40,862 nt of DNA from Gemmatimonas phototrophica (GTDB lineage: Bacteria > Gemmatimonadota > Gemmatimonadetes > Gemmatimonadales > Gemmatimonadaceae). Below the pieces are notes generated by a model. It was not told where the DNA came from. It ran no database searches and worked only from the letters and a program-made list of their open reading frames with translations. Below are positions 4,230 through 31,054 of the stretch, in pieces. Numbering within the stretch: position 1 is the first letter of the stretch; each line of letters begins with the position of its first letter. The stretch lies in assembly GCA_945870175.1 (NCBI GenBank), contig CAMBRJ010000002.1:1-40862 (forward strand), read 5' to 3'. A program made the translations under genes and the position numbers.

Positions 4230-5813
4230 ATGACTCTCCTATCATCTGTCCGTCGCGCTGGCGTGCTCGGTGCGTTCATCGCTGCGCTGCCTGTTGGCGC
4301 AGCCTTGCCGGCGCAAGGCGCGGTGGACGTGCTCATCACGGGTGCGATGGTGTACGACGGCACCGGCGCCGCAGGACGCATCACGAACGTCGGCATTCGC
4401 GGCGACCGCATTGCGTTCGTCGGTGCGATCCCGAGCGGCACCACGGCCGCGCGTCGCATCGATGCCACCGGGCTGATCGTGTCGCCGGGGTTTATTGATC
4501 CGCACACCCACGCGTATGGAGGGCTGCCGCGCTTGAATTCGGAGCGCCGCTTGAGTGCGTCCTCCTTGATGCAGGGCGTCACGACGGTCACGATCGGCCC
4601 CGACGGAAGCGGACCGTTCGATGTGAGGCGCGTGCTCGACGAATCCGAGAAGCTGGGGCTTGGCACCAACGCCTATGCCACCGTCGGCTTCGGCACGGTG
4701 CGCGCCCACGTGATGGGCGCGTCGTCGTCGCCGGCCACGACGGTGCAGATCGATTCCATGCGCGCGCTCATCACGAAGGCCATGCAGGAGGGCGCGCTCG
4801 GCGTGGGCTCAGGCTTGTTCTACGCGCCGCAAAGCTACGCCAGCACCGACGAAGCGATCGCCGTGATCTCGGCCGCGAAACCGTTCGGCGGCGTGTACGA
4901 CACGCATCAGCGCGACGAGTCGAGTTACACGATTGGGTTGTTGGCGTCGGTACGCGAAACGATTCGTATCGGCTGTGAATCGGGTCTCACGACGAACGTG
5001 GGACACATCAAGACGCTCGGTGTGGATGTGTGGGGCAAGGCCGACAGCGTGTTGGGCATCATGCGTGCGGCGCGCGCCAGGGGATGCATGGTCACGGCCG
5101 ATCAGTATCCATGGACCGCGAGTGGAACAGGATTGAGTGCGGCGTTGGTGCCGCGCTGGGCGCAGGCCGGCGGCAACGACTCGCTCAAGCTGCGCATTGC
5201 CGATGCCGCAGTGCGGGAGAAGATGCTGGTGGAAATGCGCGACAACCTGCGTCGTCGTGGTGGCGACAGCACGCTGTTGCTCACTGGTGGCAGTGCCGCC
5301 GCGACGTCGTATATCGGCAAGACACTCAAGCAGGCGGCGACCGAGCGGAACATGCCGGCGGTGGAGACGGCGCTGGCGATGATCAACGAGGGGCTCGACA
5401 TGAGCGTGGCGTCGTTCAACATGACCGAGGCCGACCTCGAAACGTTCATGAAGGATCCGTACGTGATGACGAGCTCCGACGGGTCGGACGGACACCCACG
5501 CCTGTATGGCACCTACCCGCGCAAGATCCGTCGGTACGTGCTCGACAAGCCGGTGATCACGATGGAGCGGATGGTGCGCGCGTCGTCGGGGCAGGTGGCT
5601 GAGACGTATCGCATGGTCGATCGTGGCGTGCTGCGCGCCGGTGCGTTCGCCGATGTGATCGTGTTCGATCCCAAGACCATCCGCGACGACGCGACCTATG
5701 TGGAGCCGAAACGGCTCTCGACTGGGATGGTGTGGGTGTTCGTGAACGGACAGGCGGCGGTGCAGGAGCGGAAGATGACGAACGTGTTCGCGGGGCGCGC
5801 GCTGCGTCGCTAG
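4230..5813 (+). CDS. Secreted amidohydrolase, N-acyl-D-amino-acid deacylase (D-aminoacylase) family
   Basis: Start trimmed to MTLLSSVRRAGVLGAFIAALPVGAALPAQG (signal peptide); VDVLITGAMVYDGTG...VSPGFIDPHTHAYGG, TSSDGSDGHPRLYGTYPRKIRRYV, FADVIVFDPKTI. Confidence 0.9.
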   Translation: MTLLSSVRRAGVLGAFIAALPVGAALPAQGAVDVLITGAMVYDGTGAAGRITNVGIRGDRIAFVGAIPSGTTAARRIDATGLIVSPGFIDPHTHAYGGLPRLNSERRLSASSLMQGVTTVTIGPDGSGPFDVRRVLDESEKLGLGTNAYATVGFGTVRAHVMGASSSPATTVQIDSMRALITKAMQEGALGVGSGLFYAPQSYASTDEAIAVISAAKPFGGVYDTHQRDESSYTIGLLASVRETIRIGCESGLTTNVGHIKTLGVDVWGKADSVLGIMRAARARGCMVTADQYPWTASGTGLSAALVPRWAQAGGNDSLKLRIADAAVREKMLVEMRDNLRRRGGDSTLLLTGGSAAATSYIGKTLKQAATERNMPAVETALAMINEGLDMSVASFNMTEADLETFMKDPYVMTSSDGSDGHPRLYGTYPRKIRRYVLDKPVITMERMVRASSGQVAETYRMVDRGVLRAGAFADVIVFDPKTIRDDATYVEPKRLSTGMVWVFVNGQAAVQERKMTNVFAGRALRR

Positions 5814-5821
5814 CGGTTGCC

Positions 5822-5920
5822 GAACTGATCACGCGGAGACGCAGAGGGCGCAGAGCTCGCAGAGGAAAAGTTCTCTCTGCGTTCTCTGCGCCCTCTCGGT
5901 TTTCTCTGCGTGATCAGTTC
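5822..5920. repeat. Intergenic long imperfect inverted repeat H2 (CGCAGAG-word family); may also act as a bidirectional terminator
   Basis: Perfect 13-bp outer stem GAACTGATCACGC/GCGTGATCAGTTC. Inner arm of 9-nt words ACGCAGAGG GCGCAGAGC TCGCAGAGG. Lies between convergent genes. Confidence 0.85.
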
Positions 5921-5942
5921 AGCGATCCGTCAGCAACACGCG

Positions 5943-6104
5943 CTACCCGCCGTAGTGCTTCCCCATCTTCCGCCCGTAATACCCACCCACCGCCGTGAGC
6001 ACGATGCTCACCACGAACGCGGTGAACATGCCGAACGGTTCGCCGGCGGCCCAGCCAGCGTATCCACCGATCGTGGCGCCGACAACGGCCAGCAGACGTG
6101 TCAT
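5943..6104 (-). CDS. Small (53 aa) glycine-rich membrane protein, hypothetical
   Basis: Not in the supplied ORF track (below its length limit). Manual translation MTRLLAVVGATIGGYAGWAAGEPFGMFTAFVVSIVLTAVGGYYGRKMGKHYGG*; 10 nt downstream of transketolase on the same strand; two hydrophobic segments with GxxxG spacing. Confidence 0.75.
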   Translation of the reverse strand: MTRLLAVVGATIGGYAGWAAGEPFGMFTAFVVSIVLTAVGGYYGRKMGKHYGG

Positions 6105-26381: not shown

Positions 26382-27842
26382 ATGCGCTTCTCTTCCAACA
26401 TCGCGTCACGCACACTCGCCGCGTCATGCGGCTTGTTCGTCGTGGCCTGCAGCGACGATAACTCGACCGACGTGAAGCAGATCGCGCCGGTCGCGCTCAA
26501 GAGCCAGTCAGTCACGCCCGCCCTCGCCAAGTCTCTGGTGTCCGGCGTAGAGATCTTCAGCTTGATCGGCAGCGACGATAAGCTTTCCGGGTCCCCGAAC
26601 TTCGTGTTTGGCGGCTCAGCCGATGGCGCGGGATTTACGCGCAACACCGACGGCAGCTTCTCGCTACTCACGAACCACGAAGACAACTACGCGGTGTCGC
26701 GCGTGAAGTTTGACGCGACGCTGAAGCCGATCTCTGGCGATTACGTCGTGAACTCCACCGCTGGTCGGTATCGTCTGTGTTCGGCGACGCTGGCCACGCC
26801 GGAGACGCATGGGTTTGGCCCGCTGTTCCTCACCAATGGTGAGAGCAACGAGGAATCGGAGATTCTCGCCGTCGATCCGTCCGGCCCGGCGAACACGCCG
26901 CGGTACCTGGCGGCTCTGGGCCGCTGGAACTCGGAACAGTCGCTGCCGTTGCCCAAGGTGGCGTATCCGAACCGTACCGTCATCATCATCGGTGACGACG
27001 ATTCCGGCGCTGAGGGCGGCCAGTTGGCGATGTATGTCGCCAATACCGTCGGCGACCTCGATAATGGCAGCCTGTATGTGTTGGCGCGCACCGACAACAA
27101 CACGCGTGAGCGCGACATGGTGGTCGGACAGACGTATCCGGTGCAGTTCCGCCAGATCGCCAATCAGAAGACGCTGACTGGCCGCCAGGTCAATCTGGCC
27201 GGTGTGACCGTGAACGCGATGCGCTTTGCGCGTGTAGAAGACGTGGACTACCGCAAGGGCTCGGCCGCCAACAATCGTGAGATCTATTTCACGGTGACCG
27301 GCCAGAACAATACGGGTGTGAACGCCGACTATAGCCGCAGCAAGTACGGCCGCGTGTATCGCGTGAAGCTCGACGAAAGCAGCCCGTTGTCTGGCACGCT
27401 CGAAGTGGTGATGGATGGTGACGATCGCAACGGTCCGGCCAAGACCTTCCAGAACCCGGACAACATCTACGTCGGTACGAACTACGTGTACGCGCAGGAA
27501 GACGACAACGGCTACGGGGATGAGGCGCACGACGCCTACATCTACCAGTACAACATTGCCACCAAAGACGTGCGCCCCGTGATTGAGTTCGATCATCGTC
27601 GCACCGCGACCGATGCCGCCATTTACAATGCGATCGGCGGTCGTCCGGCGGGCAAGGCAGGCTGGGAGTACGGCGCCATGCTCGACGTGTCGACCGAGCT
27701 GGGTCAGGAGAACACGTTCATCATCGCGCTGCAGCCGCACTCGTGGCGCGGCACGAAGTATCAGGGCGTGGACGGTGGCACCGTGCGTCCCACGGAGAAC
27801 CAGGCGAGCCAGATGGTCATCGTGAAGGGATTGCCGCGCTAG
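26382..27842 (+). CDS. PhoX-like (DUF839) predicted lipoprotein
   Basis: Lipobox GLFVVACSDD; SFSLLTNHEDNYAVSRVKFD..., FARVEDVDYRKGSAANNREIYFTVTG..., DNIYVGTNYVYAQEDDNGYG match PhoX/DUF839-style beta-propeller proteins. Confidence 0.7.
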   Translation: MRFSSNIASRTLAASCGLFVVACSDDNSTDVKQIAPVALKSQSVTPALAKSLVSGVEIFSLIGSDDKLSGSPNFVFGGSADGAGFTRNTDGSFSLLTNHEDNYAVSRVKFDATLKPISGDYVVNSTAGRYRLCSATLATPETHGFGPLFLTNGESNEESEILAVDPSGPANTPRYLAALGRWNSEQSLPLPKVAYPNRTVIIIGDDDSGAEGGQLAMYVANTVGDLDNGSLYVLARTDNNTRERDMVVGQTYPVQFRQIANQKTLTGRQVNLAGVTVNAMRFARVEDVDYRKGSAANNREIYFTVTGQNNTGVNADYSRSKYGRVYRVKLDESSPLSGTLEVVMDGDDRNGPAKTFQNPDNIYVGTNYVYAQEDDNGYGDEAHDAYIYQYNIATKDVRPVIEFDHRRTATDAAIYNAIGGRPAGKAGWEYGAMLDVSTELGQENTFIIALQPHSWRGTKYQGVDGGTVRPTENQASQMVIVKGLPR

Positions 27843-29716
27843 TGCAGACGGTGCGTCGAGTGGGTGTAGTGGCTGCCGCGGTGTTGGTCGCCGCGGCAGC
27901 AGGCGCGTGCGGTGAGTCCGATGCGGCCGTGCCTCAGGTCGCGCGCGGCGGCGATGCCCGCGCGATGCAGGCGCTGGCATCGTGGCGCGTGGAGATGGAT
28001 TCACTGATTGTGCGTGCGGCGCGGCTGGACAGCGCGGTGTCGACGCTCGACACCGGTGACGAGGTGCAACGCGCCCGCGAGCGCTTCATGTCGGCGCGTT
28101 CGTCGTTCAAGCACGTCGAACTCGCGCTCGAGTACTACGCGCCGTCGACCTCGCGCGAGCTCAATGGCCCTGCGCTGCCGCACGCGGAAGAGCACGAGGG
28201 CCCGAACATCGTGACGCCGCCCACCGGGTTTCAGGTCGTCGAAGAAGCATTGTTCAGCGCCGATCCGCGTGCCCAACGCGAGGCGCTGCAGACCGAAGTG
28301 CGCACGCTGCGTCAGATTCTCACGCGGGCGCGCACCATGATCGGCGCGCAGGTGGTGACCGATGATCGCGTGTGGGATGCAGTCAAGCTCGAAATGGCCC
28401 GCGTGGTGTCGCTCGGGATCACGGGCTTCGATTCGCCGGTGGCTGGTCTTTCCCTACCGGAGGCGGACGCGGCGCTGGCGGGCATTGCCCGTGCGATCGC
28501 GCCGTACCGCGGTGCCACGACCGGATGGACGGCGGTGGATTCGGCGTTGATCGGAGCACAGCGTGCATTGCGCACCAACGCGAGCCGCGATGCGTTCGAC
28601 CATCTCGACTTCTTGGTGCGCCACGCCAATCCCCTCACGCGCGCGCTCAACACGCAGCGGGTGGCGCTCGGGATCGGTCAGCCCGACGAACGCCGTGCCT
28701 TTCGCATGGAGGCCGTCACGCTGTTCGACGCGGAGGCGTTCGATGTGCTGGCGTTCGCGCCGATCGACACGCGGCAGGAGCCGGCCGTGCGCGTCGCGCT
28801 GGGCCGTGCCCTCTTTCATGACACGCGACTTTCGGGTAACAACTCGAGCGCGTGCAGTTCATGCCATATCCCGGAGCGGGCCTTCACCGACGGCCTGAAG
28901 GCAAGTCCCGGTCGATCGGGGCAGCCGCTGCCACGCAATACGCCCACGGTGATCAACATTGGGCTGCAAGTCGGTTCGTTCAGCGATCTGCGCACGACCT
29001 ACCTCGAAGATCAAGTCACCGAAGTCGTGCAGAATGTCGACGAAATGCACGCCCGTCTGTCGGATGTGTCCACGTCACTGACCGGTGACAGCACGCTGGC
29101 CGCGCAGTTCCGTGCGGCGTTCGTGAGTCGGGCGGGCGCCGTGGATACCGTGGTCACGCCCGCCCGCATTCGTGGCGCACTCGCGGCCTACATGCGTAGC
29201 CTCACGTCGTTGAACAGTCCGGTGGATCGTGCGCTTCGCGGTGATACCACGGCGTTGAATGCCGCTGAGCGGGCGGGCTTCAACGTGTTCGTGGGGAAGG
29301 GCAAGTGTGCAACCTGCCACTTTCTGCCGCTGACCAATGGGACGGTTCCGCCGATGTTTCAGAAGTCGGAGCTGGAAGTGCTCGGTGTTCCTGTGCGTGC
29401 CGTGACCAACGGCGGACGCATCGATCCGGATGTGGGTCGATATCGCATCTCCATCTCCGTGCCGAACAAGTACGCGTTTCGTACGCCGACCCTGCGGAAC
29501 GTCGCGCTGACCGCGCCCTACATGCACAACGGGGCCTATCCGACGTTGGAGTCGGTTGTCGACTTCTACAACCGCGGCGGCGGCGCCGGTATTGGCGTCC
29601 GGCTCGACAACCAAACGTTGCCGCCGGACCCGCTGCACCTCTCGGCGGGTGAGCAACGTGATCTGGCATCCTTCATGCGGGCACTGACGGACACGACCGG
29701 AATGCAGCGCCGGTAG
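27842..29716 (+). CDS. Di-heme cytochrome c peroxidase/MauG family with N-terminal imelysin-like domain (lipoprotein)
   Basis: GTG start overlaps the upstream TAG; lipobox AAAAGACGES; CSSCH and CATCH heme sites; LGRALFHDTRLSGNNSSACSSCHIPERAFTDG; N-terminal helical region with GFQVVEEALF. Confidence 0.88.
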   Translation: MQTVRRVGVVAAAVLVAAAAGACGESDAAVPQVARGGDARAMQALASWRVEMDSLIVRAARLDSAVSTLDTGDEVQRARERFMSARSSFKHVELALEYYAPSTSRELNGPALPHAEEHEGPNIVTPPTGFQVVEEALFSADPRAQREALQTEVRTLRQILTRARTMIGAQVVTDDRVWDAVKLEMARVVSLGITGFDSPVAGLSLPEADAALAGIARAIAPYRGATTGWTAVDSALIGAQRALRTNASRDAFDHLDFLVRHANPLTRALNTQRVALGIGQPDERRAFRMEAVTLFDAEAFDVLAFAPIDTRQEPAVRVALGRALFHDTRLSGNNSSACSSCHIPERAFTDGLKASPGRSGQPLPRNTPTVINIGLQVGSFSDLRTTYLEDQVTEVVQNVDEMHARLSDVSTSLTGDSTLAAQFRAAFVSRAGAVDTVVTPARIRGALAAYMRSLTSLNSPVDRALRGDTTALNAAERAGFNVFVGKGKCATCHFLPLTNGTVPPMFQKSELEVLGVPVRAVTNGGRIDPDVGRYRISISVPNKYAFRTPTLRNVALTAPYMHNGAYPTLESVVDFYNRGGGAGIGVRLDNQTLPPDPLHLSAGEQRDLASFMRALTDTTGMQRR

Positions 29717-29752
29717 CCGGTACGGCTCCGCCAGCCTGCCGGCAACCGCAAA

Positions 29753-29871
29753 AGCAACAGCGGGAACACGGATCGAACCGATCGCGCCGATGCCACCGAT
29801 AAGCCACAACGCGCGGTTTGCTTATCGGTGCGATCTGCGTCATCCGTCAAATCCGTGTTCCAGTCGTTGCT
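29753..29871. repeat. Intergenic long imperfect inverted repeat H5 (ACGGAT-word family, same as H1)
   Basis: Core arms 29763-29804 and 29820-29861, 33 of 42 positions complementary, 15-nt loop. Each arm = GG + four 9-nt words ending GAT + AAGC. Confidence 0.88.
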
Positions 29872-29965: not shown

Positions 29966-31054
29966 ATGGCTACGCTGATCGCCCCCGAAACCACCGCCGC
30001 CAGCACGCGCGCCTTCCCGGCGCAGACCAGTCGCCCCTGGGGGCGACCGCGTGGCGCGCGCCACGACATCGGTTTCCACGAGCTGACCGGTCAGTACCGC
30101 ATCGACCTGCGCGATCAGGCGCCCGACCTGTTCGACGATGTGAGCGCGATGGACTGGTCGACGCTGACCTGGCGCGACGTGGGCCGGCCGTATCGTACCG
30201 AGAAGTGGTCGAGCGCCCGGCGGAGTTACGAGCAGGAACATCACCAGCCGCTCCCGGTCGTCGATGGATGGCGCCTGTTCAACACGGCGTTCCATCAGTT
30301 CTTCCTGACTGATGTGCCCGAGGCGCAGAGCCACGCGAAGGCGCAATTCGGTGCGGCCTTGTCGCGCCTGGATCTGCACGAGGCGAAAGAAGCCCTGCAA
30401 GACATCGCCTATCTGGCGGTGTGGAACAAGATCATGCGGGTGGAAGACGCGGTGTGGGATCCCCGCGGCAAGCGTGCGCTGTTCGCCGGCCTCGACGTGA
30501 AGAAACCGCGCATTCTGTTTCTTGGCGCGGCCGATGGCTACGAGGCGATGCAGCTGGCGGCGATGTATCCGGGCGGCGAGATCGTGCTGGTGGACTACGA
30601 TGCATTTTGCGCGACGGACCGCTTCGGCAAGTTCCCACTCGATTATCCGTTCCTGGGCGTCGATCCGACCACGGGACATCAGCGCGTGTGGTACCGCGAC
30701 GACATGCCGATTCACTTCGAGGTCGCCGACATTCGCGACCTGACATACGGCAAGGAATTCGATGTGGTCGTCTCCATCGGACTGCTGGAGCATTTCCCCG
30801 ACGCGCACAAGTCGGAGTGCCTCGAGATGCACCGGCGCTTCCTCAGGCCGGGCGGTACCGTCGTGATGACCACGCCGCGCAATCAGTTCAAGTCGCGCGT
30901 GTTCTACAACCTGATGGCCGACTGGATGAACCACGGCTATCGTGAACTGATGGACGTGCGACAGATGGGGCTGTACTGCCACGAAAACGGCCTCGACATT
31001 CAGCGCGCCGGCGTGATCAAGGCGCACAACGGATTGGTGATGAAGCTGCGGTAA
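29966..31054 (+). CDS. Class I SAM-dependent methyltransferase
   Basis: 362 aa; RILFLGAADGYEAMQLAAMYPGGEIVLVDYD, FDVVVSIGLLEHFPDAHKSECLEMHRRFLRPGGTVVMTTP. Confidence 0.85.
   Translation: MATLIAPETTAASTRAFPAQTSRPWGRPRGARHDIGFHELTGQYRIDLRDQAPDLFDDVSAMDWSTLTWRDVGRPYRTEKWSSARRSYEQEHHQPLPVVDGWRLFNTAFHQFFLTDVPEAQSHAKAQFGAALSRLDLHEAKEALQDIAYLAVWNKIMRVEDAVWDPRGKRALFAGLDVKKPRILFLGAADGYEAMQLAAMYPGGEIVLVDYDAFCATDRFGKFPLDYPFLGVDPTTGHQRVWYRDDMPIHFEVADIRDLTYGKEFDVVVSIGLLEHFPDAHKSECLEMHRRFLRPGGTVVMTTPRNQFKSRVFYNLMADWMNHGYRELMDVRQMGLYCHENGLDIQRAGVIKAHNGLVMKLR

Follow-up and report, generated by a model that had tools for sequence, protein, structure and literature searches.

A dispersed extragenic palindrome family with arms built of nine-nucleotide words in a Gemmatimonadota lineage

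The 40,862-nucleotide stretch of Gemmatimonas phototrophica DNA analysed here (the window) contains a long inverted repeat, H5, which starts 36 nt past the TAG stop codon of a di-haem cytochrome c peroxidase gene and is followed, on the same strand, by a gene for a methyltransferase-domain protein. The features of the locus, and a second copy of the palindrome family in the window, are:

27743-29716, plus strand: upstream gene, di-haem cytochrome c peroxidase (CCP_MauG), stop codon TAG at 29714-29716
29744-29762, no strand: left outer flank with the degenerate 6-nt words AACCGC, AAAAGC and AACAGC, read from the sequence and from the lag-6 signal in the flanks of 64 copies
29753-29871, no strand: extended hairpin H5 (hairpin scan score 28; fold z = -6.55)
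29763-29804, plus strand: H5 left arm, GG followed by four 9-nt words ending in GAT and by AAGC, from the sequence
29805-29819, no strand: H5 loop of 15 nt, CACAACGCGCGGTTT, from the sequence
29820-29861, minus strand: H5 right arm, the reverse complement of the same four-word plan, both arms being matched by the arm model
29966-31054, plus strand: downstream gene, methyltransferase-domain protein; the sequence upstream of it is kept in congeners, uninterrupted
1878-1997, no strand: second copy of the H5 palindrome family, found by DNA search, arm model and hairpin scan

The two 42-nt arms of H5 are complementary at 33 of 42 positions and are composed of eight 9-nt words, four per arm, each of which ends in GAT. 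When compared with itself at a lag of nine positions, the left arm matches at 18 of 33 positions (shuffle p = 0.0005) and the right arm at 15 of 33 (p = 0.007). As RNA, the hairpin is predicted to fold with a minimum free energy of -57.5 kcal/mol (z = -6.55 relative to dinucleotide-shuffled sequences). Arms, loop, pairing, words and the distance to the stop codon are all confirmed as the first-pass annotation had given them, and the lag-9 autocorrelation check that it proposed exceeds shuffles in both arms; that description had, however, overlooked the degenerate 6-nt words outside the arms.

Across 64 extracted related copies the match at lag 9 is 0.44, compared with 0.21-0.31 at the other lags from 5 to 15. 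The 9-nt register is real in H5 and in its family, but the strict 9-9-9-9 spacing first read from H5 is not the norm: most copies follow a 9-9-11 plan, GAACACGGAT-GACACCGAT-TACACGGAA-CCAACACGGAT-AAGC, of which H5 is a more regular variant. As judged by eye, H5 represents a sub-type with outer GCGGGAACACGG that recurs at loci L004 and L016 and three times in the complete congener. The 6-nt words AACAGC, AAAAGC and AACCGC give the outer flanks a lag-6 match of 0.43 (64 copies). The family consensus approximates a perfect palindrome, (AACAGC)n CAGAACACGGATgacACCGATtacACGGAaccaACACGGATAAGC joined to its reverse complement, with arms of ~42-53 nt, a total length of ~120 bp and conserved ends, AACAGCCAGAACACGG, that are neither GTAG nor CGTC. 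Tandem arrays whose units have a larger internal sequence between the two arms occur at L033 (5965-7293; 7 x 188 bp) and L047 (3711-5393; 6.6 x 255 bp), and contig C4 of the window's own genome (locus L027) carries two copies spaced 257 bp. Because of the tandem arrays, integron attC sites were considered and were rejected by eye, as the ends do not fit RYYYAAC/GTTRRRY.

The window belongs to a draft MAG (3.16 Mb, 70% complete), which we compared with G029, a complete congener genome of 5.18 Mb. A DNA search of the MAG returned 72 matches, palindromes usually being matched on both strands, and a model built from 48 arms yielded 81 arm matches in the MAG and 62 strong ones in G029. Since the arm matches are almost all head-to-head pairs (in G029 practically all, with loops of 10-100 nt), they correspond to ~40 and ~31 hairpins, respectively; no gene-sized spacing between facing arms, such as an autonomous transposon with these ends would give, was found in either genome. 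In this Gemmatimonadota lineage a genome thus has ~30-40 copies, which lie between genes. The first-pass annotation had proposed a distinct non-coding element class, to be given up if the genome held no further copies and the arms showed no lag-9 autocorrelation above shuffled controls; because more copies exist, the proposal of a distinct, dispersed family stands. Five contigs of the MAG (C242, C22, C12, C64 and C45) end at or near these palindromes, as expected if repeats break assembly.

Within the phylum, a strict pattern occurred in 6 of 400 sampled genomes, all six from the genus of the window, and its reversed control gave 0 matches; other members of the genus carry a more diverged version of the palindrome. 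A pattern scan of GTDB genomes located copies in Gemmatimonadota from fresh water; arms built of words in a similar way turned up in Methylococcaceae, Bacteroidota, Ignavibacteria, Cloacimonadota, Anaerolineae and others. Outside the phylum, arms matched by the model numbered 146 for Candidatus Methylobacter oryzae and 80 for a MAG of the Methylococcaceae; a MAG of the Cloacimonadota gave 37, and a Phycisphaerae genome gave none. The distribution is patchy, since a 20-base pattern with 72 matches in Methylobacter oryzae had none in 398 other sampled genomes of its phylum (reversed control, 0). Recurrence of the word plan across phyla may reflect transfer or convergence. Pattern matches in rumen Bacteroidaceae resemble coding repeats when the sequence is read and were rejected as family members; at L048 and L093 of a Bacteroidaceae MAG, GAACACGGAT words follow each other in tandem every 55 nt, and inspection suggests coding repeats with no relation to the hairpins. 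No description of the word strings was found in open-access full text, where any papers returned were unrelated.

In six congeners (G014, G019, G023, G024, G026 and G027) both genes flanking H5 are kept and the H5 site is empty; several of the six have another short GC-rich inverted sequence in the same gap. The empty sites suggest the gain of a mobile or copied element, as the first-pass annotation had surmised, although repeated loss could in principle account for them instead. No target duplication was seen at H5, where the diverged intergenic spacer makes a duplication unreadable and leaves the junction unfixable; for the family, neither a transposase nor an exact insertion boundary was found. 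Conservation of individual copies at their sites is poor. When flanks were mapped to G029, about a dozen loci of the MAG fell at or close beside a G029 copy, and at L028 an element common to several species has shrunk to a stub in Baikal-G1. Seven gaps hold the family in the MAG and not in G029, where five of them carry a hairpin of another family (p = 0.003, the background being 18% of gaps that measure at least 150 bp, in a comparison made after seeing examples and with two of these gaps exceeding 1 kb). The G029 gaps orthologous to C45:6647, C153:2642 and C103:7453 of the MAG carry a hairpin of a different word family.

The 1.6 Mb around the G029 origin (2,889,001-4,489,000) contain 99 long hairpins in about nine families, sorted via hand-made word patterns. 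Some of those labelled 'in gene' or unclassified may be chance matches in coding sequence. Internal periods are clear in the H5 family, B and D (9 nt), C and G (7 nt), E (10 nt) and F (16 nt), and weak or unclear in the small groups H and I and in unclassified hairpins; because the families were defined by word patterns, these periods describe them and are no independent test. The window itself holds a hairpin of another word-built kind at 5768-5973 (CGCAGAGNN words, GAACTGATCACGCGGAGACGCAGAGGGCGCAGAG), which matches family D. The 82 intergenic hairpins of all families in the 1.6 Mb are distributed over 36 convergent, 40 tandem and 6 divergent gaps (p = 7e-5, computed by base pairs on gene calls from a simple codon-usage script), hairpins being depleted at divergent promoters.

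A position at 3' ends and in convergent gaps, rarely in divergent ones, together with a very stable fold (z = -6.55), speaks for a bidirectional transcription terminator or a stabiliser of mRNA 3' ends that is selected as an RNA hairpin. However, the pattern tested detected no U-tract (T-run) after the stem-loop of H5 and no terminator-like match; the earlier judgement that H5 is not a plain rho-independent terminator is borne out, and that identity was rejected. Likewise, H5 had no match above the gathering score in Rfam 15, and an Rfam RNA identity was discarded. The RNAalifold covariation term is -0.02 for 47 copies. Among 27 non-redundant copies, chosen because both arms begin with the GAACACGGA block, this block never varies, and at most of the variable positions the agreement between arms does not exceed chance; positions 13, 15, 18 and 24 agree more often than expected, which leaves a small signal of structure or common origin. 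Likeness of the arms is 0.71 within one element and 0.66 between different elements, and orthologous arm identity (0.74) is modestly above the unrelated value of 0.64. The 9-nt words are conserved, but in the bases that separate the words the two arms are almost independent of each other. With variable bases nearly independent, arms of one element only slightly more alike and no net covariation, selection for RNA pairing is unsupported. These data, and the missing Rfam match, also leave the RNA-processing role suggested earlier unsupported. A terminator or stabiliser is further at odds with the absence of H5 from six congeners of the same gene order, although several of them have another short GC-rich inverted sequence there, and we regard this explanation as unlikely.

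The dnaA gene of G029 is located at 3,688,209, in rough agreement with the GC-skew minimum of the samples. Sixteen of the 31 G029 copies lie in the origin-nearest 20% of the genome (KS p = 3.6e-5; p = 0.0006 with clusters collapsed), and of 33 copies in the MAG, 23 fall inside the 1.6-Mb origin region when mapped to G029 (p = 5e-6, unmapped loci being counted as outside). For hairpins of all families, the density is ~62 per Mb in that 1.6-Mb region versus 25 per Mb in 400 kb on the terminus side (Poisson p = 0.0007), and 280 kb of scattered G029 samples contained 2 hairpins, two of the 20-kb samples falling inside the terminus-side 400 kb. In G020, related but more diverged copies show no significant origin bias (KS p = 0.39). 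Proximity to the origin, like the conservation of words and not of spacers, argues for a putative protein-binding array that would serve to organise or segregate the chromosome, with the 9-nt word as the site and many sites in each pair of arms; a protein-binding site had been among the first suggestions, and the conserved words are compatible with one. However, the other palindrome families have the same origin bias, which therefore need not be word-specific, and the G020 data and the poor conservation of copies in place also weigh against such an array, which appears to us rather improbable. The bias could stem from synteny or from the conservation of genes in the origin region.

As multicopy, dispersed extragenic palindromes that sometimes form arrays, the elements resemble REP, BIME and REPIN sequences (PMC3733652, PMC3116915), and mobilisation by a RAYT could be envisaged. 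However, searches for Y1_Tnp in the MAG (70% complete) and in the complete G029 with its ~31 copies (E <= 0.001) found none, which makes a RAYT driver unlikely, and in three congeners with one Y1_Tnp gene each, the ~3-kb locus of that gene contains no ACACGGAT word. REPs measure 20-40 bp and bear a GTAG or CGTC tag, whereas the H5 family is longer (~120 bp) and has different ends; the dedicated transposase was not found in the carriers examined. We rejected the Y1 transposase as driver and consider a RAYT-driven REP/REPIN element very improbable. A chance inverted repeat or an assembly artefact, conceivable for a window from a draft MAG of 70% completeness, is refuted to near certainty by the further copies in the complete G029 and in many other records, and by a reversed control pattern with 0 matches.

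Comparison of orthologues bears on how the arms stay alike. Inspection of 73 orthologous comparisons, with cases selected after the fact, revealed elements of which one arm had changed: at L295 the arms are 0.96 alike, against 0.72-0.76 in orthologues, and the left arm is unchanged; at L028 they are 0.88 alike, against 0.64-0.67, with one additional 9-nt word; at L062 they are 1.00 alike, against 0.62 in the orthologue comparison; and L007/L038 display a wholesale change of one arm. From the first three cases we infer that one arm was overwritten by the other, as in quasipalindrome template switching. The homogenisation of inverted-repeat arms by this process is an established form of mutation (PMC8794818, PMC7202029, PMC8604942). 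The H5 family shares with quasipalindrome template-switch sites an imperfect palindrome whose arms become homogenised (PMC7202029, PMC8794818), but the latter reflect a mutational process and not a repeat family, and template switching accounts for maintenance, not for dispersal.

On balance, H5 probably belongs to a family of palindromic repeats (~120 bp, MITE/ERIC-like) that is dispersed, extragenic and non-autonomous, and whose symmetry may be kept at the DNA level by template switching between arms and by slippage. As in MITE/ERIC-like elements, the repeat is dispersed, extragenic, inverted, ~120 bp long and without coding capacity, and H5 occupies a site in one genome that is empty in relatives. 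Copies would reach intergenic space by a copying step, through either a trans-acting enzyme or replication-coupled copying, and insertions in promoters would be lost. Replication would expose the single-stranded hairpin, allowing the nascent strand to switch template between the arms, or to slip between tandem words and so add or remove 9-nt words. Overwriting of one arm with the other may then keep the arms similar without selection at the RNA level. Maintenance of the arms by template switching and slippage during replication is the best-supported part of this scheme.

The best reading of the family is that it belongs to the ERIC/MITE-like kind and is new in its sequence and word-built architecture. 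ERIC/IRU/RU-1 and related MITE-like repeats (YPAL/RU-2, RU-3, Correia/NEMIS) have been reviewed (PMC2229807); like the ERIC/IRU/RU-1 kind, the family is 100-200 bp long, extragenic and multicopy, with a long stem-loop, no transposase of its own and no recognised mover. In a comparison made with ERIC by description only, it differs in its hosts and in arms that are chains of 9-nt words; TA ends and target duplications were not found in it. BrickBuilt, a Porphyromonas gingivalis MITE that contains a minisatellite and has ~19 copies (PMC4596501), likewise combines tandem units with inverted-repeat ends between genes, but its 23-nt units lie between small inverted ends, whereas the 9-nt units of the H5 family form both arms.

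A wider proposal, which we put forward as speculative and doubtful, is that bacteria in general carry word-built palindromes as a class of extragenic sequence made and renewed by replication, in which slippage would create words, template switching would create symmetry, and word families would swap within gaps, most often near the origin. If this holds, the ACACGGAT word plan in unrelated phyla would point either to horizontal transfer or to a shared protein that recognises it. A transposase or an RNA function is the usual explanation for long extragenic palindromes; here, neither is evident. The excess near the origin and the word plan common to several phyla likewise pose puzzles that can be tested. 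Since orthologous copies in many congeners offer direct before-and-after views of arm overwriting and word gain, both the upkeep of palindrome symmetry and spread without a recognised transposase become testable by genome comparison.
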